Assembly: GCF_009193325.2 (NCBI RefSeq)
Contig: NZ_CP059856.1
Coordinates: 744,001 to 808,000 of the forward strand
Length of the DNA stretch: 64,000 nucleotides
Direction: 5' to 3'
Origin: Bacteroides zhangwenhongii
GTDB taxonomy: Bacteria > Bacteroidota > Bacteroidia > Bacteroidales > Bacteroidaceae
The notes below the pieces were generated by a model. It did no database searches and was not told the origin of the DNA. It saw nothing but the letters and a program-made list of their open reading frames with translations. The position numbers and the translations under genes are program-made. This document shows, one piece after another, positions 43,135-55,262 of the stretch. The number at the start of each line of letters is the position of its first letter. Position 1 is the stretch's first letter.

Positions 43135-43692
43135 TTAGATTTTTGCAAATAATAGCAGAAATAAGGGCAGATAATCTTTCAATTCATTTCGCAGAAGCTC
43201 CATTGTTTTTTGTTTGTACCGATTGATGGACTTCACGCTAAGATTCATTTCTTCCGCAATTTCCGCATGGGTCTTTCCTTCAAAGAAACTTTTTATAAAT
43301 ACCGTGCGATAACTTTCCGGGAGTTTATTCAGTGTTTCGTACAGCATTCTGTATAATTCGTCAAGGGTATATACGCTGTCCGGTTCCACTTCGTAAATGG
43401 GAGCTTTCTTTTGAATAACTTCTGCATAGTTCCATTCATACTCTTGATGTTTCAGATAATTCAGGCAGCTGTTTTTTACACACATTTTGATATATCCCAA
43501 TGCTGTGTCCGATTGAAAATCAAAAGAATCTATTTTATCCCATAGTGAAGTAAATACATCCGAAACAATATCTTCCCGTGTCTCTTTATCATCAATAAAT
43601 CTTTTTGCATATAGGACGAATGGAGCATAAAACTCTTCATAAAGTTGCTTGAAGGTCTGTTCTTTAGGCTGTTTTTGAAAAGATATTTTCAT
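43135..43692 (-). CDS. ECF RNA polymerase sigma factor (PUL 2)
   Basis: A 185-residue sigma-70-family factor of the extracytoplasmic-function type (start at the ATG at 43692, MKISFQKQP). Region 2 lies at about 10-80 (LYEEFYAPFVLYAKRFI, EDIVSDVFTSLWDK). Region 4 lies at about 115-170 (LPESYRTVFIKSFFEGKTHAEIAEEMNLSVKSINRYKQ, quoted in the parts LPESYRTVF and HAEIAEEMNLSVKSI), the HTH for the -35 box. It is divergent from fecR across 208 bp, whereas in PUL 3 the sigma and fecR genes are in tandem. It is predicted to be released by FecR when the SusC transporter is loaded, and then to transcribe the susC operon. Confidence 0.95.
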   Translation of the reverse strand: MKISFQKQPKEQTFKQLYEEFYAPFVLYAKRFIDDKETREDIVSDVFTSLWDKIDSFDFQSDTALGYIKMCVKNSCLNYLKHQEYEWNYAEVIQKKAPIYEVEPDSVYTLDELYRMLYETLNKLPESYRTVFIKSFFEGKTHAEIAEEMNLSVKSINRYKQKTMELLRNELKDYLPLFLLLFAKI

Positions 43693-43725
43693 TATTTTGA
43701 GATTCTGTTGTTTTTCATTTCGTTG

Positions 43726-43733
43726 CAAATATA
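43726..43733 (-). promoter_or_regulatory. Candidate -7 element of the PUL 2 sigma gene
   Basis: Reverse strand TATATTTG matches TAnnTTTG, 33 bases upstream of the sigma start. The -33 box is not evident. Confidence 0.45.
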
Positions 43734-43900
43734 TAATAAGATAATCGCTAAACCTTAATTTTTCTGTTTCTTTTTTTATTCTTTTGATGAGAAATTTGGA
43801 AATAAAATAAAAAAAATCCGTTTTTCCTGTCCCTTTTGGGAAACTTTGATTGTATTATAAATGTAATTGCAATTAACAGATAAAGATTTTGAAAGAAAAT

Positions 43901-44824
43901 ATGGAAAATATGAATCCGGAATCATTGTTTCGCAAAGCACAGGCATTGGGAGATGATATTAGAGAAATGGAGTCCATCGATACATTGGCGGCCTATCATA
44001 AAGCGAAACTTGATATAAATAAGGTAGAAAGAAAAAAGACTGTTTATAGTCAGTTGATGCGATATGCGGCATTATTGGCTATTCCTCTTTTAATGACATC
44101 TTTGGTTCTGGGATATTTATATTTTGATGGAGCGGAAGAAGAAGTAAAGTATGCCGAAATTACGGCTGCTACCGGTTCGGTGATACGTTATGAACTTCCG
44201 GATGGTTCTGTTGTGTGGCTGAATGCTGGTACGACTTTACGTTATCCTACGGTCTTCAAAAAAGATAATCGGAGTGTAGAACTGAAAGGGGAGGCCTATT
44301 TTGAGATACAGGCAGATCAAGAACGTCCTTTTTATGTAAATACCCGGAATGGATTGAGTGTCTATGTTTATGGTACAAAATTCAATGTAAACGCTTATGA
44401 AAATGACGATTATATAGAAACAGTGTTGGAGAAAGGTAAAGTAAATGTAATAACCCCCAATCGGGAAACAATAGTTTTGACTCCCGGAGAACAATTGCTT
44501 TACGATAAACAGAGTCAGAAATCGGTAAAGAATAAAGTAGATGTTTATGGAAAGATAGCTTGGAAAGATGGAAAGTTAGTTTTTAGAAATACGCCGTTAG
44601 AGGAAATCTTCAAGAGATTGGAACGCCATTTCAATGTGGATATTCAATATAATAATAGGTGTGAAAAAGAATATAGATATCGGGCTACTTTCCGGGATGA
44701 GACTTTGTCGCAGATATTGGATTATTTGGCTAAATCTGCAAAAATGAAATGGAAAATTGAAGAATCTCAGCAACAAGCTGATGATACATTTACAAAGAAA
44801 AAAATTATAGTGGATTTGTATTAG
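43901..44824 (+). CDS. FecR family anti-sigma factor (PUL 2)
   Basis: A single-pass inner-membrane anti-sigma factor, 307 residues from ATG 43901 (a TTG at 43889 in the same frame is possible). The cytoplasmic N-terminus of about 45 residues binds the sigma factor. A transmembrane helix follows at about 46-68 (YAALLAIPLLMTSLVLGYLYF, partly). The FecR domain at about 80-205 shows ELPDGSVVWLNAGTTLRYP, GEAYFEI, PFYV and VYGTKFNVNAY. The C-terminal domain (about 225-300) is of the DUF4974/secretin-like kind that contacts the STN domain of the TonB-dependent transporter. It is the partner of the divergent sigma gene and of the downstream susC. Confidence 0.95.
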   Translation: MENMNPESLFRKAQALGDDIREMESIDTLAAYHKAKLDINKVERKKTVYSQLMRYAALLAIPLLMTSLVLGYLYFDGAEEEVKYAEITAATGSVIRYELPDGSVVWLNAGTTLRYPTVFKKDNRSVELKGEAYFEIQADQERPFYVNTRNGLSVYVYGTKFNVNAYENDDYIETVLEKGKVNVITPNRETIVLTPGEQLLYDKQSQKSVKNKVDVYGKIAWKDGKLVFRNTPLEEIFKRLERHFNVDIQYNNRCEKEYRYRATFRDETLSQILDYLAKSAKMKWKIEESQQQADDTFTKKKIIVDLY

Positions 44825-44827
44825 TAG

Positions 44828-44855
44828 TAACCTTTAAAAATAGAATAGCCTATGA
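44828..44855 (+). promoter_or_regulatory. Candidate ECF-sigma promoter of PUL 2
   Basis: TAACCTTTAAAAATA (44828-44842) and ATGA (44852-44855). The same pair, TAACCTTAAAATA with ATGA at the identical 23-bp offset from AACC, occurs before the PUL 3 susC (55108-55135). The AAC-type first box resembles ECF -35 elements. Inferred from this two-site comparison only. Confidence 0.45.
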
Positions 44856-44874
44856 GATACACGCATTAAAGATG

Positions 44875-44992
44875 AAAAAAGGAAGAAAGTTGCTACCAAC
44901 AACTGTCTTCCTCAGAAAACAGATTCACGGTATGGGGTCTTGCAAACACTAACCGGAATCAAACCATAGTTCATTTAGTAATAAACTTTAGT
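44875..44992 (-). ncRNA. Predicted cis-antisense sRNA opposite the PUL 2 susC leader (DonS-type)
   Basis: On the reverse strand a TACATTTG element (45006-44999) would start transcription near 44992. About 80 bases later comes a hairpin of 12 pairs with one mismatch (arms 44900-44911 and 44881-44892, 7-nt loop), followed directly by six T (44880-44875). This is a textbook intrinsic terminator facing no annotated reverse-strand gene. The RNA of about 118 nt would be antisense to the susC 5' leader. PUL 3 repeats the arrangement. B. fragilis DonS is the described precedent for such RNAs, repressing its PUL. Confidence 0.7.
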
Positions 44993-44998
44993 TAGCCG

Positions 44999-45006
44999 CA
45001 AATGTA
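44999..45006 (-). promoter_or_regulatory. -7 element of the PUL 2 antisense sRNA
   Basis: Reverse strand TACATTTG (TAnnTTTG). Its first base is the complement of the A of the susC ATG. No -33 TTTG box found. Confidence 0.55.
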
Positions 45007-48000
45007 TGAAAAAAAATCATTCATTTATTGCATTATGTTCTAAATATGCTTTAAATCTAAAATTTCCTTTAATTATGAGGATCAGTCTTACACTACTTTT
45101 CCTAGTTGTATTACAGCTTTCTGCTGAAAATAGCTACGCCCAACGAATGCGTATTGCCATTTCTATGAGTAATGTATCTGTAGAACAGGTACTGAACAAA
45201 ATCGAGGAGACTTCTGACTATGTATTCCTCTATAATGATGAGACGATTCAAAAGAGTCGTATTGTGTCTGTAAGAAGTAAATCCGGAAAAATTACTGATA
45301 TTCTGGATGATATATTCAAAGGAACGGATATATCATATACTGTGATTGATAAACAAATAATCTTGTCTAAATCAAATAAAGTTAATCAGAATGCTAAGGC
45401 TATTCAGATAAAAGGTACGGTAAAAGATGCCTTGGGAGAGCCGTTAATTGGTGTCAGTGTATTGGTGAAAGGTACTTCTAACGGTACGGTGACTGATTTG
45501 GACGGGAGATTTTCTTTGAATGTTTCCGTTGGAGATATTCTTGAATTCTCGTATGTTGGTTATGCAGCTCAGTCGGTAACGGTAAAAAATGCGAATCCGT
45601 TGGATATTGTGTTGAGTGAAGATGCGCAAGCTCTGGACGAGGTGGTAGTAACCGCATTGGGTATCAAGAGAGAAGCTAAGGCTTTGACGTACAATGTGCA
45701 GGAAATAAAAGCAGCCGGTATTACAAAAGTGAAAGATGCTAACTTTGTAAATAGTCTTTCCGGTAAGATTGCAGGTGTGACTATCAATCAGAGTTCATCG
45801 GGAACCGGTGGATCTTCCCGTGTTGTCATGCGTGGAACGAAATCTTTGTTTGGTGAAAATAATGCATTATATGTTTTGGATGGTATTCCAATGCAGGGGT
45901 TAAGGACCAAACAATCCGATAATTTTTATGAGTCTGTTGAAGTAGCTGATGGTGACGGTATATCTAATATCAATCCGGAAGATATAGAAAGTATGTCAGT
46001 TTTGACTGGAGCTTCTGCAGCGGCTTTGTATGGTAACAGAGGAGCTAACGGTGTGATATTGATTACAACCAAAAAAGGTGCAATTGGAAAGCCTAGAATA
46101 AGTTACTCTAACAGCACTAGTTTCTCAAGACCTTTCGTTACTCCGGAATTTCAGAATACATACGGACGTAAGGAAGGTGAATTCAAGAGTTGGGGAGATA
46201 AATTGGAGAAACCTTCTACATATAACCCATTGGACTTCTTCCAGACAGGTTTCAATACGATGAATTCTATTGCCGTATCGACCGGAACGGAAACTAATCA
46301 GACTCATATATCTTTTGGAGCTGTAAACTCAGAGGGTATTATTGACAATAATAAATACAACCGTTACAACTTTACATTCCGTAATTCTTGGGATATTGTG
46401 AAGAATGTTTTGAGTATGGATATGGGATTATTTTATATTAAACAGAATAATCAGAACAGTAATGGCCAGGGTATGTATTATAATCCTTTGGTACCAATTT
46501 ATTTGTTTCCACCAAGTGACGATATAAATAAATATGCTGTTTATGAAAGATATGATACCGACAGAAATTTCAAGACTCAATATTGGCCTTATGGTAATCA
46601 GGGATTGGGTATGCAAAATCCGTATTGGATTATCAACCGTAATATGTTCAATACCGACAGAGATCGTTATATCATGTCATTGTCAATGAAATGGAATATA
46701 ACCAATTGGCTTAATATTATCGGACGTGCCCGCATTGATAATGCTTATACTGATTTCGAACGTAAACTGTATGCATCTACAGATGGGTTATTCTCTAAAT
46801 CTCAAGGAAATTATATGAATCAAGAAGATAAGAATACTTCAACTTATCTTGATTTCTTAGTGAATGTAGATAAGAAGTTCGGTGAAAATTATCATCTGTT
46901 GGTAAATTTAGGAGGGAGCTTTTATGATGAGAAATATAAATCGGATACGTTTGAAGGCAATTTAGTAGGGGTGCCTAATTTCTTTCACCCGAGTAATATA
47001 CCTTCTACGGAAAGTAATTATAACAAATCAGAATTACATACCCAGACACAGTCCATCTATGGTAAAGCTGAAATCGGTTATCGGAACTTTCTTTATGCAG
47101 ATGTCACAGGACGTATAGACTGGTTTTCTACATTGGTAGGTACATCTAAAGAATATGTATGTTATCCTTCAGCTGGTCTTTCAGTCATATTGTCAGAAAT
47201 ACTTCCTTTGCCGGAAAAGATCATTTCTTTCTGGAAGATTCGTGGATCATATGCACAAGTTGGTAATCCTCCAAGCGCATACCTTCCTTATGCTACGGTA
47301 GCATTGGAGAATGGTAATGCAACAAGTGCCAATTTTACGCCTGCCAGTCATTTAAAACCGGAGATGACCAAGGCATTCGAGTTCGGTATGGACCTGCGCT
47401 TGTTCCAAAATAAATTGAATATCGCAGCAACATATTATAATTCAAACACTTATAACCAATTGTTTAAATATGAGCTACCGCCTAGTACAGGGTATGCTTT
47501 TGCTTATGAAAATGCCGGTAAGGTAAATAACTGGGGTATTGAATTGAGTGTTGGTTTTAATCAAGATCTGGGACCTGTACAGTGGAATTCAAACTTGATT
47601 TATTCAATGAACCGTAATGAGATTAAAGAATTACTTCCTGAATATGTAACCGACCGCACTACGGGTATGACCGTAAAGTCACCGACAGAGTTTTCTGTGG
47701 CCACTGCTGATTCATATAGAATGATTTTGAAAGAAGGTGGTAGTATGTCTGACATTTATGCGACTAAACTGAAACAGGACTTGCATGGAAACATTCTTAT
47801 TACTAATGGGGGCGTGTCGGCAGAAGAAAATACTTTCATCAAAGTAGGTTCTGCGGCTCCAAAATATAATTTAGGTTTTAGAAACAGCTTTTCTTGGAAG
47901 GGGCTGGAACTTGATTTCTTGATTGACGCACGTGTTGGCGGTGAAGTTATCTCGGCTACACAGGCTCTGATGGATCAGTTTGGAGTGTCTCAGCAAACAG

Positions 48001-48353
48001 CAGACGCACGTGATAATAAAGGTGTAGTGGTGAATAAAGGAAAACTGGATGCAGAACAGTATTATGGAACTGTTGCTTCAGGTAAGACCGGTTTGCTGGC
48101 ACATTATGTATATAGTGCAACCAATGTTCGTTTACGTGAAATGTCATTATCATATATGCTTCCATCAAAATGGTTTGGAGAAAAGTTAAATATTTCTCTT
48201 TCTTTGACGGGACATAACCTGTTGATGTTCTACAATAAAGCCCCATTCGATCCGGAACTTACGGCTAATACAGGGACTTATTATCAAGGTTTCGATTATT
48301 TTATGCCTCCTAGTTTGCGTAGTTTCGGTTTTGGTGTAAAAGTTAACTTTTGA
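45006..48353 (+). CDS. SusC/RagA TonB-dependent transporter with N-terminal STN domain (PUL 2)
   Basis: Outer-membrane glycan importer, 1115 residues. In order: an extended signal peptide (to about 46, ending AENSYAQ); an STN domain (about 50-125) that signals to FecR; a carboxypeptidase-D-like domain (about 136-215, GTVKDALGEPLIGVSVLVKG); and the SusC signature ALDEVVVTALGIKRE. The plug (LYVLDGIPM, AALYGNRGANGVILITTKKG) and a barrel ending in VNF complete it. The STN domain plus adjacent sigma/FecR genes indicates trans-envelope signalling. It is closely similar to the PUL 3 transporter throughout, for example KDANFVNSLSGKIAGVTIN against the same run with two or three changes. Confidence 0.97.
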   Translation: MKKNHSFIALCSKYALNLKFPLIMRISLTLLFLVVLQLSAENSYAQRMRIAISMSNVSVEQVLNKIEETSDYVFLYNDETIQKSRIVSVRSKSGKITDILDDIFKGTDISYTVIDKQIILSKSNKVNQNAKAIQIKGTVKDALGEPLIGVSVLVKGTSNGTVTDLDGRFSLNVSVGDILEFSYVGYAAQSVTVKNANPLDIVLSEDAQALDEVVVTALGIKREAKALTYNVQEIKAAGITKVKDANFVNSLSGKIAGVTINQSSSGTGGSSRVVMRGTKSLFGENNALYVLDGIPMQGLRTKQSDNFYESVEVADGDGISNINPEDIESMSVLTGASAAALYGNRGANGVILITTKKGAIGKPRISYSNSTSFSRPFVTPEFQNTYGRKEGEFKSWGDKLEKPSTYNPLDFFQTGFNTMNSIAVSTGTETNQTHISFGAVNSEGIIDNNKYNRYNFTFRNSWDIVKNVLSMDMGLFYIKQNNQNSNGQGMYYNPLVPIYLFPPSDDINKYAVYERYDTDRNFKTQYWPYGNQGLGMQNPYWIINRNMFNTDRDRYIMSLSMKWNITNWLNIIGRARIDNAYTDFERKLYASTDGLFSKSQGNYMNQEDKNTSTYLDFLVNVDKKFGENYHLLVNLGGSFYDEKYKSDTFEGNLVGVPNFFHPSNIPSTESNYNKSELHTQTQSIYGKAEIGYRNFLYADVTGRIDWFSTLVGTSKEYVCYPSAGLSVILSEILPLPEKIISFWKIRGSYAQVGNPPSAYLPYATVALENGNATSANFTPASHLKPEMTKAFEFGMDLRLFQNKLNIAATYYNSNTYNQLFKYELPPSTGYAFAYENAGKVNNWGIELSVGFNQDLGPVQWNSNLIYSMNRNEIKELLPEYVTDRTTGMTVKSPTEFSVATADSYRMILKEGGSMSDIYATKLKQDLHGNILITNGGVSAEENTFIKVGSAAPKYNLGFRNSFSWKGLELDFLIDARVGGEVISATQALMDQFGVSQQTADARDNKGVVVNKGKLDAEQYYGTVASGKTGLLAHYVYSATNVRLREMSLSYMLPSKWFGEKLNISLSLTGHNLLMFYNKAPFDPELTANTGTYYQGFDYFMPPSLRSFGFGVKVNF

Positions 48354-48377: not shown

Positions 48378-49949
48378 ATGAAAAACAAAATTTATAACAT
48401 CTCACATATTTGTTTCCTGATGCTTATTTCCTGTTTTTTGTTAGGAAGCTGTATGTCTGATACGATTAATCTGGATCCTGATAAAATTCAGGAAGAAGAA
48501 TTAGACAAAGACAATTTATGGGGTAGTTATCTCACGACGATGCAGCGTAGGGTAGTTCCTGAAGATGTTAACTTGTTTCAGCGCTCGGAGGACCTTTTTG
48601 GTAATATGTATTCTGGATATTTTGCAGGAACGCAGAACTGGGGAGGGGGAGCAAATGGTACTACTTACGCTATTTCTGATGAATGGAAGGATGCTCCTTT
48701 TAAAAGTGCGTTTGTGGAATTTTTGTCTTCTTGGAATATTCTGCGTCAGAAAGTGGATTCTACATCTGTTCTTTTTGCTGTTGGTGAAATTGTAAAGGTG
48801 GAAGCTATGCATAAAGCTACGGATATGTATGGTCCATTACCCTACTTGAAATTTGGATTGACAAATCCTGTCCCTTATGATTCACAACAGGCTATCTATG
48901 AATCATTCTTTAAGGAACTTGATCATGCCATTGACATCTTGGTTAAATTTGATCAGGCTAATCCGAGTTCTAAAGCCCTTGTTAAATTTGACCTGATTTT
49001 TAATAGTAATATCTCGAATTGGATTCGTTTTGCAAATTCTCTGAAATTACGTTTGGCGATGCGTATAAGTGCTGTTTATGAGGATGCTCAGAAAATAGCT
49101 GAAGCAGCAGTTGCTCATCCGTATGGGGTGATTGAAAGTAATGACAACAATCCGACAATGCAGTCCAATTCTAACCTTTCGTTTACCTATCACAATCCTA
49201 TTCACAGTATTAGTAGTGCCGAAGGTTATGAAGAGGATGTAATGGGTGCCACTATGGATGCTTATTTGAATGGTTTTGAGGATCCTCGTAGAGCTGTGTT
49301 TTTTGCGTTGTCTTCTAATGGCAATTATCGAGGGTTGCGTAATGGACATAAGAATGGAGATGTTTTTAAAGGTGACGAGGGGTTGTCTAAACCTAATATA
49401 CAACAAGGAACACCTTACATCTGGATGACTGCGGCTGAAGTTTTCTTTTTACGGGCGGAAGGAGCCTTAAAGCAATGGGATATGAAAGGTACTCCGGAGG
49501 CTCTTTATAAATCCGGAATACGTGCTTCTTTTGAACAGCATGGAGTCAAAAATGTGGAAAATTATCTGGTCAGTACTAAAGTCCCGGCAAGATATCCTGG
49601 ATTTAAGACTAGCCCTTCCGCACCTGTGCCATCTGATATTACGGTTGTTTGGAATACGAACAGTACAAAAAAACAGTTGGAACAGATTATTACCCAGAAA
49701 TGGATTGCAATGTATCCATTAGGACAGGAAGCATGGAGCGAATTCCGTCGTACAGGATATCCTAAAATATATGAGATTGTCAATAACGAAAGTGGCGGTG
49801 TTATTAGTACTTCTATACAGATCCGCCGTGTTCCTTTCCCTTATTCTGAATATCTGGGGAATAAGGATGAAGTAGAAAAGGCTATAAAACTATTGAACGG
49901 TCCGGATACCGGAGCAACTCGTTTATGGTGGGATTTAGCAGACAAATAG
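48378..49949 (+). CDS. SusD-like outer-membrane lipoprotein (PUL 2)
   Basis: A 523-residue surface lipoprotein (lipobox LLGSC near residue 25) that partners SusC. It belongs to the SusD-like branch with EAMHKATDMYGPLPYLKFG, WIRFANSLKLRLAMRIS and the C-terminal QKWIAMYPLGQEAWSEFRRTGYP motif. That last motif sets this subfamily apart from the RagB type in PUL 1. It starts 24 bp after susC and is followed 27 bp later by the GH18 enzyme. It presumably captures N-glycan-type oligosaccharides released by that enzyme. Confidence 0.95.
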   Translation: MKNKIYNISHICFLMLISCFLLGSCMSDTINLDPDKIQEEELDKDNLWGSYLTTMQRRVVPEDVNLFQRSEDLFGNMYSGYFAGTQNWGGGANGTTYAISDEWKDAPFKSAFVEFLSSWNILRQKVDSTSVLFAVGEIVKVEAMHKATDMYGPLPYLKFGLTNPVPYDSQQAIYESFFKELDHAIDILVKFDQANPSSKALVKFDLIFNSNISNWIRFANSLKLRLAMRISAVYEDAQKIAEAAVAHPYGVIESNDNNPTMQSNSNLSFTYHNPIHSISSAEGYEEDVMGATMDAYLNGFEDPRRAVFFALSSNGNYRGLRNGHKNGDVFKGDEGLSKPNIQQGTPYIWMTAAEVFFLRAEGALKQWDMKGTPEALYKSGIRASFEQHGVKNVENYLVSTKVPARYPGFKTSPSAPVPSDITVVWNTNSTKKQLEQIITQKWIAMYPLGQEAWSEFRRTGYPKIYEIVNNESGGVISTSIQIRRVPFPYSEYLGNKDEVEKAIKLLNGPDTGATRLWWDLADK

Positions 49950-49976: not shown

Positions 49977-51002
49977 ATGAAGAAATTATTAATGTATATA
50001 ATTGTTTCTGTGATGATTGGCACGGGGATTATATCGTGCAATACGGATATAGAAGCTTTGGATATAGTAGTTCCTGATAATATGTCTGAAGAATATTGGG
50101 AAAGTTTGAGAGCATATAAAGCTAGGAATGATCATGAAGTCTTTTTTGGCTGGTTTGGCGGATGGACAGCTAACTCTGCTGATATGATAAACTTCTTGAG
50201 CAGTGTACCTGATAGTGTGGATATTATTTCTATATGGGGTGATTATAAAAATTTAAGTCCGGCTCAAATAGAAGATTTGCGTTATGTGCAGGATGTGAAA
50301 GGAACTCGGGTGACATATACGATCTTCGCTCACAAAATTCCTGATGAATTTATGTCTGGAGAGAATCATGAAATTGCAACTTCGGAGGGAATAGAAGAAT
50401 ATGCCAAGGCATTAGTTGATACAATGTATAAGTATGGTTATCAAGGTATTGACCTTGATTATGAACCTGGATATCAAGAATTCCCGGGAGTTCCGTTCAA
50501 TGGCCCTTTGGTTGGACCTTCATATATGTGGCCTGACTATATGGACAATATGGAAATTTTTGTAAAAGCATTGGGTAAGTATATTGGTCCAAAATCCGGA
50601 ACTCGTAACTTGTTGATTATCGATGGTGTGCCTTATCATTTGAAACAAGGACTGGCTGAGTACTTTAATTATGGTGTTGTGCAGTCATATAATTCTCCAT
50701 CGTATTATGATTTACAGAGTCGCTTTGATAATGCTGCTCGGAATGGTTGGAAACCAGAACAGTATATCTTTGCAGAGACATTTGAAGGTGGAAAATATGT
50801 GAATGGAGGGGTTTCGCATACTTTAAGAGAGGGAGGTACAGTACCGTCACTGGAAGGTATGGCACGTTTTCTTCCTATGTATGAAGGTAAACTGGCTACT
50901 CGTAAAGGAGGTTGTGGTACATATCATATGGAAAATGACTACCGCTCTAATCCTAATTACAAATGGACACGTGAGGCTATCAGAATAATGAATGAACATT
51001 AA
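49977..51002 (+). CDS. GH18 endo-beta-N-acetylglucosaminidase-like lipoprotein (PUL 2)
   Basis: A 341-residue GH18 TIM-barrel lipoprotein (lipobox IISC at about residues 17-20). The catalytic strand reads GIDLDYEPG, with E163 as acid/base and D161 as its partner; the first Asp of the usual D-G-x-D-x-D-x-E is Gln156. Substrate-site segments FFGWFGGW, SIWGDY and VVQSYN fit Bacteroides GH18 endoglycosidases that cut the GlcNAc-GlcNAc core of N-glycans, rather than chitinases. The location in a SusCD operon with LamG binding proteins supports glycoprotein glycan release at the cell surface. The exact N-glycan type (high-mannose or complex) is unknown. Confidence 0.9.
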   Translation: MKKLLMYIIVSVMIGTGIISCNTDIEALDIVVPDNMSEEYWESLRAYKARNDHEVFFGWFGGWTANSADMINFLSSVPDSVDIISIWGDYKNLSPAQIEDLRYVQDVKGTRVTYTIFAHKIPDEFMSGENHEIATSEGIEEYAKALVDTMYKYGYQGIDLDYEPGYQEFPGVPFNGPLVGPSYMWPDYMDNMEIFVKALGKYIGPKSGTRNLLIIDGVPYHLKQGLAEYFNYGVVQSYNSPSYYDLQSRFDNAARNGWKPEQYIFAETFEGGKYVNGGVSHTLREGGTVPSLEGMARFLPMYEGKLATRKGGCGTYHMENDYRSNPNYKWTREAIRIMNEH

Positions 51003-51013
51003 TATTTGAAAAA

Positions 51014-52216
51014 ATGAAACAGAATATAAAATATGCACTATTGACTCTGTTCTCCTTTTTAATGATGTCTTGTCAGAAAAGTCAGGAATATTATGAAGGA
51101 GTGTATATTGTAGGAGCAGATAAATTATCTCCGGTTGCTAATTTGACGATTGATGATTTACCGGCAGTGATTGGTATTAAGGTTGCTTCATCTAATACAA
51201 TAGAGAATAATGTGGAAGTAATGATGAAGTCTACTCCGGAATTGGTAGAAGCGTTTAATAAGGAGTATAAGAAGAATTATGAATTACTTCCTGAAAAATC
51301 TTATAAGTTGGAAAATACAAGCTTGATAATTGAAAATGGAAAAAGCATTTCTTCAGAAGGTGTACGTTTAAGTATTATCAGTCGCGAACTATTGAAAGAG
51401 GGTACGACTTATGTGCTTCCGGTAAGTATTGCGGGAGTGTCTGATAAGAATCTTTCTGTCATAGAAGGCTCGCGTACTATATACATCGTTATTAATCAAG
51501 TTATCATAACCCAAGCGGCTGATTTGTCTAACAGTTGGGAATATTTTAAGGTTGATTTTAGGAAAGAATCAAAATATAATACCGCGGCATTGACAAATGT
51601 AACGTTTGAAGCTCGGGTACGTTTTAAGAAGATGATACCTACAAGTGGAAAATGGTGCTTCTCTGTTATGGGATTGGAAGAGAACTTCTGTTTGCGTACG
51701 GCAGGCAGTAATACAGAGGGTTGGAAACTGCAATTGAGTGGTGGAAGTCCAGCTATTGATTCTAGAGATGTTTTGCCTAATGATAAGTGGGTGCACTTAG
51801 CCTGTGTTTATGATGGTTCACAAGGTAAAAAGTTTATTTATGTTAATGGCGAATTACAAGGAGAACTTCCGGATACACGAGGTACTGTTGATTTAACCTA
51901 CGCTTACGGGCAGGATGCAAATGCTGCATTCTATATTGGACAATCAGCTGCTGATGACCGTTATATGAATGGGTATGTCAGCGAGGCACGTGTATGGGCT
52001 GTCGCCCGTTCAGCTGCCGATCTGAAGAATAACGTATGTTGGGTGGATCCTTTAACTGATGGGTTGGTTGCTTATTGGAGATTCAATGAACCTGCTGAGG
52101 ATAATGCTAAGGTTGTAACCGATCTTACCGGTAATGGATACAATGCTACTTTTGCTGGTTGGGGAAATCTTAGGTTTGTAGAAGGAGTGCGTTGTCCTGA
52201 TAATACTGCTGAATAG
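51014..52216 (+). CDS. DUF1735 + LamG-domain surface glycan-binding lipoprotein (PUL 2)
   Basis: A 400-residue lipoprotein (lipobox LMMSC at about residues 16-20). The N-terminal ~150 residues form the DUF1735 (BT_3987-like N-terminal) fold. The C-terminal part from about 170 is a concanavalin-like LamG/Laminin_G_3 domain (VHLACVYDGSQGKKFIYVNGELQG, quoted in part, YIGQSAADDRYMNGYVSEARVW, quoted in part, VAYWRFNEP). Such proteins accompany GH18 endoglycosidases in N-glycan PULs and probably bind glycoprotein glycans. It is the last gene of PUL 2 and is followed by a strong terminator. Confidence 0.88.
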   Translation: MKQNIKYALLTLFSFLMMSCQKSQEYYEGVYIVGADKLSPVANLTIDDLPAVIGIKVASSNTIENNVEVMMKSTPELVEAFNKEYKKNYELLPEKSYKLENTSLIIENGKSISSEGVRLSIISRELLKEGTTYVLPVSIAGVSDKNLSVIEGSRTIYIVINQVIITQAADLSNSWEYFKVDFRKESKYNTAALTNVTFEARVRFKKMIPTSGKWCFSVMGLEENFCLRTAGSNTEGWKLQLSGGSPAIDSRDVLPNDKWVHLACVYDGSQGKKFIYVNGELQGELPDTRGTVDLTYAYGQDANAAFYIGQSAADDRYMNGYVSEARVWAVARSAADLKNNVCWVDPLTDGLVAYWRFNEPAEDNAKVVTDLTGNGYNATFAGWGNLRFVEGVRCPDNTAE

Positions 52217-52287: not shown

Positions 52288-52375
52288 AATTTTAATCGAT
52301 GTAGGTTTATATACAAACAGGAGGTATTTCGGAAAAATAAAGTCTCCCAATGCACAGATATCCAAATATATGTGC

Positions 52376-52383
52376 TATTTTTG
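52376..52383 (+). promoter_or_regulatory. Candidate -7 element of the Rpn-family gene
   Basis: TATTTTTG matches TAnnTTTG, 22 bases before the chosen ATG (52406). It also lies within the longer open frame to 52370, supporting the later start. Confidence 0.5.
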
Positions 52384-52405
52384 TCATATACAAAAGTTAT
52401 GTAAT

Positions 52406-53347
52406 ATGTCTAGATACGTCAATCCTTTTACAGATATAGGGTTTAAGATAATTTTCGGTCAGCCTGCCAGTAAGGAGCTTCTTATAATTCTACTGAATGA
52501 GTTGCTCGCCGGAGAGCACCATATTGAGGACCTTGTTTTTTGGGATAAGGAGGATCGTGCGGATAATGTTCATGACAAGGGAATTATTTATGATCTATAT
52601 TGTCGTACAGATAGCGGTGAATTTATAATTGTGGAAATGCAGAATCGGTGGCATAGCCATTTTCTGGACCGTACACTTTATTATGTTTGCCGTGCCGTGA
52701 GCCGTCAGATAGAGAATCCTCTTCCCAAACATATTCCGATACCCGAGAATCGGGATGAAAATGGAATGTTGGTGAAAGAAGAATTTGTTCCTTATGGAAA
52801 ACATTATCAACTTTTTACTGTTTATGGTGTTTTCTTAATGAATTTCAAGGAAGCGGGATTGGAGGAAAAGTTCCGTACGGATACGGTTGTCTCGGATAAG
52901 GATTCGGGAGCTGTGGTAAATCCCCATTTTCGCCAAATCTATTTGCAGTTCCCCTATTTTACAAAAGAATTGGCGGATTGTAATACCTTATATGATAAAT
53001 TAATTTATGTATTGAAGAACATGAGTAATTGGAGCAGAATGCCTGATGCATTGAAAGACCAGGTATTTGAACATTTGGCAAAATTGGCGGCAGTCGCAAA
53101 TCTGTCGGAGGAGAATCGTATCGCTTATGATAAAGCGGTAGACCGCTATAGTGTGAGTCAGATTGTGGAAGAAGACGAACGTCGGGCGGCTGAAGAAAGG
53201 TGCCGGATTGCTTTAGAAAAAGGATTGAAGGAAGGTCGAAAAGAAGGGCAGCGTATTATTGCTTCTCAAATGAAGCGTGACGGAATATCTATTGAAAGTA
53301 TTGCTAAATATACGGAGCTTTCTATAGAAGAAATAGAAGATTTGTAG
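52406..53347 (+). CDS. Rpn family PD-(D/E)XK nuclease / putative transposase
   Basis: A 313-residue protein of the Rpn (recombination-promoting nuclease, PDDEXK_2) family, start at the ATG at 52406. The N-terminus MSRYVNPFTDIGFKIIFG and the nuclease core (VFWDKEDRADNVHDKGIIYDLYC, quoted in part, then FIIVEMQN) supply the Asp and the E-x-Q of the PD-(D/E)XK site. A helical tail rich in Arg/Glu/Lys follows (EEDERRAAEERCRIALEKG). Rpn proteins of E. coli are nucleases that increase recombination. No terminal inverted repeats are seen, so it is not clearly mobile here. It has its own terminator and promoter and stands between the two paralogous PULs. Confidence 0.9.
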   Translation: MSRYVNPFTDIGFKIIFGQPASKELLIILLNELLAGEHHIEDLVFWDKEDRADNVHDKGIIYDLYCRTDSGEFIIVEMQNRWHSHFLDRTLYYVCRAVSRQIENPLPKHIPIPENRDENGMLVKEEFVPYGKHYQLFTVYGVFLMNFKEAGLEEKFRTDTVVSDKDSGAVVNPHFRQIYLQFPYFTKELADCNTLYDKLIYVLKNMSNWSRMPDALKDQVFEHLAKLAAVANLSEENRIAYDKAVDRYSVSQIVEEDERRAAEERCRIALEKGLKEGRKEGQRIIASQMKRDGISIESIAKYTELSIEEIEDL

Positions 53348-55107: not shown

Positions 55108-55135
55108 TAACCTTAAAATAACCGTTTTGTCATGA
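55108..55135 (+). promoter_or_regulatory. Candidate ECF-sigma promoter of PUL 3
   Basis: TAACCTTAAAATA (55108-55120) with ATGA at 55132-55135, the same pair and the same 23-bp offset as at 44828-44855 in PUL 2. Only two examples support it. Confidence 0.45.
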
Positions 55136-55248
55136 AAAAAAGTATCCGGAAGAAGGATGCCGCCCAATTCCGGATATGAAATCGTACTTTTAGTATTAAA
55201 GCTATAAGCTTACTCTTGAGAAATAAATATTATGATTTAACACTAAAA
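55135..55248 (-). ncRNA. Predicted cis-antisense sRNA opposite the PUL 3 susC leader (DonS-type)
   Basis: On the reverse strand TAGATTTG (55262-55255) would start an RNA near 55248. A hairpin with perfect 9-bp arms TATCCGGAA / TTCCGGATA (arms 55143-55151 and 55168-55176, 16-nt loop) follows, then C and seven T (55141-55135). There is no reverse-strand gene for this terminator to serve. The predicted RNA of about 114 nt overlaps the susC leader, with the same geometry as in PUL 2 but essentially different sequence, as expected for locus-specific antisense regulators. Confidence 0.7.
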
Positions 55249-55254
55249 AACGCT

Positions 55255-55262
55255 CAAATCTA
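55255..55262 (-). promoter_or_regulatory. -7 element of the PUL 3 antisense sRNA
   Basis: Reverse strand TAGATTTG (TAnnTTTG), ending on the complement of the A of the susC ATG, exactly as in PUL 2. Confidence 0.55.

Follow-up and report, generated by a model that had tools for sequence, protein, structure and literature searches.

A candidate DonS-like antisense RNA with a conserved fold opposite the susC leader of a GH18 PUL in Bacteroides zhangwenhongii

Introduction

Related bacteria are already known to use antisense RNAs of the DonS-like class as regulators, and DonS itself was reportedly described in Cao et al. 2016, J Bacteriol 198:2410. Passages of later papers state that DonS represses its N-glycan PUL in B. 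fragilis, ‘albeit through an unknown mechanism’ (PMC11697453), that DonS-like PUL cis-antisense RNAs measure 78–128 nt (PMC7366714), and that ten, later 32, PUL-associated antisense RNAs have been counted in B. thetaiotaomicron (PMC7366714, PMC11697453, PMC5635687, PMC10994844). The sigma-ABfr promoter is given in one such passage as TAnnTTTG at -7 and TTTG at -33, with 52% of the B. thetaiotaomicron cis-antisense RNAs assigned a -7 box of this type, and the same source raises noise from AT-rich DNA as a doubt about such RNAs (PMC7366714). Both anti-correlation and positive correlation between antisense RNAs and their PULs are mentioned in a further excerpt, which calls for functional work (PMC10994844).

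The locus examined here lies in a 64,000-nucleotide stretch of the B. zhangwenhongii genome (hereafter the window), for which an initial annotation had proposed a small reverse-strand RNA across the leader of a susC homologue. A search of the open-access literature found no paper on this susC-leader RNA.

Results

Gene order and the predicted RNA

The PUL begins with a reverse-strand ECF sigma factor gene (43135..43728; Pfam PF08281, PF04542), divergent from the gene of a FecR-type anti-sigma factor, fecR (43889..44824; PF04773, PF16344), which is followed, likewise on the forward strand, by a susC homologue (45006..48353; ORF, translation and PF13715 match), the presumptive antisense target, a susD homologue (48378..49949; PF12741), a BT1044-like GH18 of the endo-beta-N-acetylglucosaminidase type (49977..51002; PF16141, PF23916) and a putative lectin-like surface glycan-binding protein (51014..52216; PF08522, PF13385). 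Because susC is followed by susD, a BT1044-like GH18 and a lectin-like protein, the PUL appears to be of the N-glycan type, with the substrate deduced from the GH18 family.

As the initial annotation had reported, the reverse strand carries TAnnTTTG at the susC ATG, reading TACATTTG at 45006-44999. This putative -7 promoter box (44999..45006) overlaps the start codon, its first two bases (TA) facing the A of the susC ATG (45006) and the preceding base. The corresponding forward-strand arrangement, CAAAnnT directly 5' of an ATG, is found at eight of the 2249 ATG triplets in the window, the susC one included. The start of a PD-(D/E)XK nuclease family transposase gene (52370-53347, forward strand), which lies between two GH18 PULs, also reads CAAATATATG. 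A -33 TTTG at the usual spacing was not seen by eye in the alignment of related loci.

Box and terminator together predict a reverse-strand antisense RNA of 117–119 nt (about 118 nt; 44875..44993), with its start placed at 44992-44995 and its end at 44875. The RNA 44993-44875 folds as three stem-loops at -35.9 kcal/mol compared with -20.9 kcal/mol for shuffles (z -4.6), and none of 200 dinucleotide shuffles folded as well as the 119-nt RNA. Stem-loop 1 (44962..44993) is complementary to the susC leader about 13–44 nt before the ATG, stem-loop 2 (44922..44960) rests on the predicted fold and on covariation, and stem-loop 3 (44879..44913) is the stem of an intrinsic terminator that ends in six T on the reverse strand (44880-44875). 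The hairpin with its six T and its end at 44875 had been described correctly; its earlier count of 12 pairs is revised by folding to 15 pairs with one C-U mismatch (44913-44879). A T run follows the hairpin on the antisense strand only, with none on the fecR strand. A simple consensus terminator scanner did not list the 44913-44879 hairpin and listed 44922-44903 on the reverse strand instead, and its terminator count was not clearly above that of shuffles (three found versus 1.9 expected, sd 1.3).

It also held true that no reverse-strand gene is served by this terminator, the adjoining fecR and susC both being on the forward strand; the reverse-strand ECF sigma gene is not its user because it lies on the far side of fecR. 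A small ORF within the RNA was considered and rejected: the RNA in the window could encode 20 aa, but the ORF is not conserved, since, counting only ATG starts within the first 90 nt of the examined stretch, the longest ORF varies between 0 and 51 aa across the 27 related loci (one of which contains N) and is 2 aa in eight of them.

Conservation and covariation among relatives

At the DNA level, 32 of the 158 genus genomes searched, the own genome included, gave matches, and 30 loci were returned, of which L001-L027 were studied; the short matches L028-L030, and those in two genomes for which no locus was returned, were taken as chance. All 27 loci have a long ORF in the susC position, and upstream of it there is a fecR of at least 309 codons in 25, a 243-codon ORF in L010 and a contig end in L022. 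The box is exactly TAnnTTTG in 23 of the 27 (own included) and one base off in four, with the free n positions varying among CA, AC, AA and TC.

The fold was assessed on two alignments. In A2, a MAFFT alignment of 21 sequences that was not fitted to a model, pairing is kept in 85.3% of the cells that the named structure defines, compared with at most 54.4% for slid versions of the structure, and there are both-side changes at 14 pairs versus 9.3 in shuffles (one shuffle in 500 as high); further pair types were no more numerous than in shuffles, 371 of 500 of which reached as high a count. A5, a model-fitted alignment of 27 sequences built from 28 sources (L027 gave no match), adds Dysgonomonas and three other genera and favours the structure by construction; in it 86.9% of the cells are paired, and both-side changes occur at 23 of 37 pairs, where shuffles give 11.3 ± 1.9 and slid versions no more than 13. 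In A5 all nine pairs of stem-loop 2 have both-side changes in at least one sequence, as do 13 of the 15 pairs of stem-loop 3, while stem-loop 1, the least tested of the three stems, shows mostly invariant pairs or one-sided changes. The apical loop of stem-loop 2 keeps a TTGCRAGACT core in most sequences. A B. finegoldii scaffold (L011/L031) has an N run inside stem-loop 2, and an insertion in the nearest relative (98% identical) proved to be apparent only, being an N run in the scaffold.

Sites for the conserved loop GRGTCTYGCAAAC in the own genome, allowing one mismatch, were not in excess (nine versus seven for the reversed control), and the single exact site is the susC leader locus itself. 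The conservation argues that the predicted RNA is a selected feature and not noise of AT-rich DNA.

Which strand carries the fold

At pairs that are Watson-Crick in the window, the antisense reading of A2 gives 44 G-U versus 17 A-C cells and that of A5 gives 48 versus 15; because related sequences contribute cells that are not independent, p-values for this comparison are only a guide. Each A-C cell in the antisense reading corresponds to G-U on the mRNA; with G-U prevailing in the antisense reading, the fold appears to be kept on the antisense strand.

These counts bear on the idea that the structure belongs to the sense leader of the susC mRNA, as an attenuator, processing site or regulatory leader, and that the antisense box and terminator are incidental. 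We regard this as distinctly unlikely. The mRNA strand, too, folds better than its shuffles (z from -1.1 to -5.2) and by z-score surpasses the antisense strand in L020, loop conservation could serve the mRNA as well as an antisense RNA, and cis-acting PUL mRNA leaders are reported in a passage of PMC5635687. Energy is nonetheless lower on the antisense strand in all 21 sequences, and the excess of G-U over A-C on that strand, the one-sided T run, and a TAnnTTTG kept while its n positions vary all speak against a sense leader and for an antisense RNA.

Distribution of the RNA and of its layout

A covariance model (R2) trained on related loci, the window's own sequence included, matches the window at 44874-44998 with 126 bits and reaches at least 66 bits in 25 of the 158 genus genomes; some match at E 0.01 was present in 48, the rest being weaker. 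Among the sources of a named-record set, 19 of 50 match, B. xylanisolvens XB1A (L038) included, several of the 19 being training loci under named records, and outside the training set there were matches in Dysgonomonas hofstadii (L040, 74.9 bits) and Bacteroidales bacterium F22 (L048, 69.3 bits). Twelve of the 399 family genomes matched at E 1e-4. Three of the twelve lie outside the genus, and their matches (L266, at the same place as L048; L267 and L269; L268) fall at fecR-susC leaders, with L267 showing susC in a locus that ends before fecR. One of these genomes, from another genus (G159), carries the RNA twice (L267, L269), once at each of two susC leaders, a pattern that would fit joint duplication of RNA and PUL. 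Of 393 order genomes, five matched at E 1e-4: the own genome, one congener and three with terminator-like matches.

Several low-scoring candidates were set aside. The order-level matches L270-L273 (32–39 bits) look like ordinary terminators, with both strands matching and no adjoining susC-like ORF by eye, and a candidate paralogue in the own genome (1252566-1252668, 29.6 bits) likewise looks like an ordinary two-sided terminator, lying 40 bases after a 615-aa ORF and having a weaker match on the other strand; the other genus matches at 24.9–31.7 bits are weak. The B. salyersiae and B. nordii loci gave no R2 match, and B. pyogenes reached only 18–21 bits. Genome G049 (L154) has two neighbouring FecR relatives (62% and 59%) and no BT1044-like GH18 match.

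The layout reaches further than the sequence. From 49 named FecR loci, 46 were examined by script and 42 have an ORF in the susC position within 500 bases; an antisense TAnnTTTG lies in the same register on the first ATG in 24 of the 42 and was not found there by the script in the other 18, a different ATG having been taken as first in L031 and L047. Ten of the 24 are Parabacteroides, Tannerella/Tannerellaceae or unplaced Bacteroidales (L058, L060, L064, L065, L067-L071, L076), and all ten have an antisense terminator 84–108 bases before the ATG and a different RNA sequence; in an alignment of 12 such leaders, both-side changes occur at seven of 14 terminator pairs. With the same register and a terminator in ten loci of different sequence, position and layout appear to be older than the RNA sequence.

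A box held in the start-codon register above a changing RNA is also what would be expected of promoter interference, in which antisense transcription collides with polymerase on the susC leader and the RNA is a by-product. Such a by-product would need just a promoter and some terminator, whereas the covariation and the strand-specific G-U pairs indicate selection on the RNA's own fold, and we consider interference as the whole explanation unlikely.

Survey of fecR-coupled leaders and a second predicted antisense RNA

The own genome has 30 FecR_C genes, and for 27 of these a PF13715 (SusC-type) gene lies no more than 2.5 kb away; the remaining 81 of the 108 PF13715 matches over the cut-off, taken by domain match, served as controls, 80 with a usable ATG (L291, without one, was dropped). 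An antisense box together with a terminator was present in 11 of 27 fecR-coupled leaders versus two of 80 controls (p 2.4e-6), under criteria set after the finding had been seen and loosened once; a stricter first rule, under which a stem counted only if it ended no earlier than the first base of the T run, overlooked plain terminators and gave 6/27 versus 0/53. The RNAs predicted at the 11 leaders are 78–134 nt long. CAAAnnT before an in-frame ATG occurs in six fecR-coupled leaders versus two controls (p 0.003), and a sense-strand box plus terminator was found in none of the 27 and none of the 80.

Antisense terminators alone occur in 15 of the 27 fecR-coupled leaders (5/80 controls), and sense terminators in one (12/80 controls). 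This distribution bears on whether the hairpin at susC is a mere fecR terminator or a chance hairpin from which no sRNA is made. Intergenic hairpins are common, and ordinary two-sided terminators can give low-scoring R2 matches; against that stand the rarity of sense terminators in these leaders, the absence on the fecR strand of a T run following the hairpin, and the two further conserved helices and the promoter box that accompany it, so that this possibility is extremely remote. With its kept box, covarying helices, kept terminator, strand-specific G-U pairs and enrichment in the genome, the small antisense RNA of the initial annotation is borne out as a prediction, and its encoding opposite the susC leader is strongly supported.

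Some of these leaders resemble one another. In six fecR-coupled susC leaders of the own genome (L198, L199, L201, L202, L205, L206) the antisense terminators have similar ATCCGG...CCGGAT stems, and L193 and L207 share another, ATACGGGA...TCCCGTAT; shared terminator stems may mark sub-families of PUL antisense RNAs.

The next GH18 PUL in the window has the same layout on the reverse strand (55135..55262), with a box TAGATTTG at 55262-55255 on the susC ATG and a T run that ends at 55135. The second RNA predicted there, at about 55248-55135, has a terminator reading TATCCGG...CCGGATA followed by a T run. In genome G017, which we take to be B. fragilis NCTC 9343, the leader of this second PUL finds an 87% identical alignment (L152), and susC is 1089 aa long in both PULs. 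The second RNA (55135-55262) is possibly the true DonS orthologue. This presumed B. fragilis genome contains two BT1044-like GH18 genes, compared with twelve such matches in the own genome, two of which are pieces of one gene.

That the RNA at the first susC is itself the orthologue of DonS we hold to be very improbable. Its best-scoring FecR counterpart in the presumed B. fragilis genome is 36% identical and none exceeds 41% among the matches listed, R2 has no match there at E 0.01, and the B. fragilis GH18 PUL with the 87% identical leader corresponds to the window's second PUL. On the other side, G017 holds a second GH18 PUL (L151) that could also be don, and a passage of PMC11697453 places DonS in an N-glycan PUL, with the same position opposite susC. 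Since presumed B. fragilis has no close relative of the first PUL but shares the leader of the second, the RNA is probably not DonS itself; most likely it would be a DonS-like RNA at a paralogous PUL, the RNA shared with B. fragilis being its neighbour at about 55248-55135.

A putative promoter of susC

A block upstream of susC, GTAACC-16 bp-CCTATG (44827..44855, forward strand), is a putative ECF-sigma promoter. Of 26 aligned related loci, 23 have GCCTATG, with more variation in the upstream half of the block, and AACCTT(T)WAA occurs in seven of the 27 fecR-coupled leaders versus two of the 80 other leaders of the own genome. If the block is an ECF promoter, the susC mRNA would start at about 44861-44865 and the antisense RNA would cover most of the 5' UTR.

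Discussion

We consider it likely that the locus encodes a reverse-strand, DonS-like cis-antisense sRNA, about 118 nt long, that sharpens the off/on switch of the GH18 PUL, and the RNA would most likely be a repressor of susC. Control of the GH18 locus, also part of the initial annotation, is what we infer. In the proposed mechanism, the housekeeping sigma factor would transcribe the antisense RNA as long as the glycan is absent. Over most of the susC 5' UTR, from about 11–14 nt before the ATG upstream, this RNA would be fully complementary to the mRNA; it would pair with leaky susC transcripts, perhaps making first contact at the exposed apical loop of stem 2, and the pairing would hinder translation and lead to degradation of the duplex. 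Once the glycan is sensed, the ECF sigma factor would drive strong susC transcription through the antisense promoter, and, with that promoter lying over the start codon and first codons, the two transcripts would be mutually exclusive. Together, these steps would make the PUL switch more sharply between off and on.

A broader reading is more tentative. The arrangement may represent an ancient Bacteroidales module, in which a promoter within the start codon (CAAAnnTATG), an antisense gene about the extent of the susC 5' UTR and a selected fold and loop are kept in Bacteroidaceae, Dysgonomonas and Tannerellaceae/Parabacteroides while the RNA sequence is replaced; this is possible, though we would not presume it. 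An antisense promoter built into the susC start codon means that start codon and promoter are coupled, and, if the reading is true, the persistence of the module points to a shared mechanism of loop-started pairing and mutually exclusive transcription. A conserved, covarying fold with a named loop, together with changes to the TTTG part of the box, opposite bases 4–7 before the susC ATG, that are neutral for the protein, provides concrete mutants with which to approach the mechanism of PUL antisense RNAs.

The susC-leader RNA can be placed among several described antisense and small RNAs. CopA/CopT and RNAI/RNAII are antisense systems of plasmid copy-number control; as in those systems, a fully complementary stem-loop antisense RNA would have an exposed loop from which pairing could start, and, unlike in copy-number control, loop-started pairing at susC is a deduction. 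FopS and GibS of B. thetaiotaomicron are likewise small RNAs acting near translation starts, FopS repressing PULs at susC, but, according to passages of the same paper, they act in trans via a shared seed, and the FopS structure has been deposited in Rfam (PMC11697453). The susC-leader RNA differs from both in having no excess of loop partners elsewhere in the genome and no Rfam match: no family reached its gathering score in the window, and 44800-45100 gave two microRNA-family hits with E 1.9 and 4.3.

Position, predicted size and PUL type support the closest likeness suggested by the initial annotation, that to the DonS class. The RNA lies opposite a susC leader in a PUL with an ECF sigma/anti-sigma pair, has a -7 box of the sigma-ABfr type and, at a predicted length of about 118 nt, falls within the 78–128 nt that a passage of PMC7366714 gives for such RNAs. 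It differs from DonS in its own RNA sequence and in a PUL that has no close relative in the presumed B. fragilis genome. What appears to be new, as read from sequence comparison, is the deep conservation, the fold on the antisense strand and the promoter embedded in the start codon, the last found also in Tannerellaceae/Parabacteroides; the covarying three-stem fold and the start-codon promoter, both known here from sequence, may set the susC-leader RNA apart from the described members of the class.
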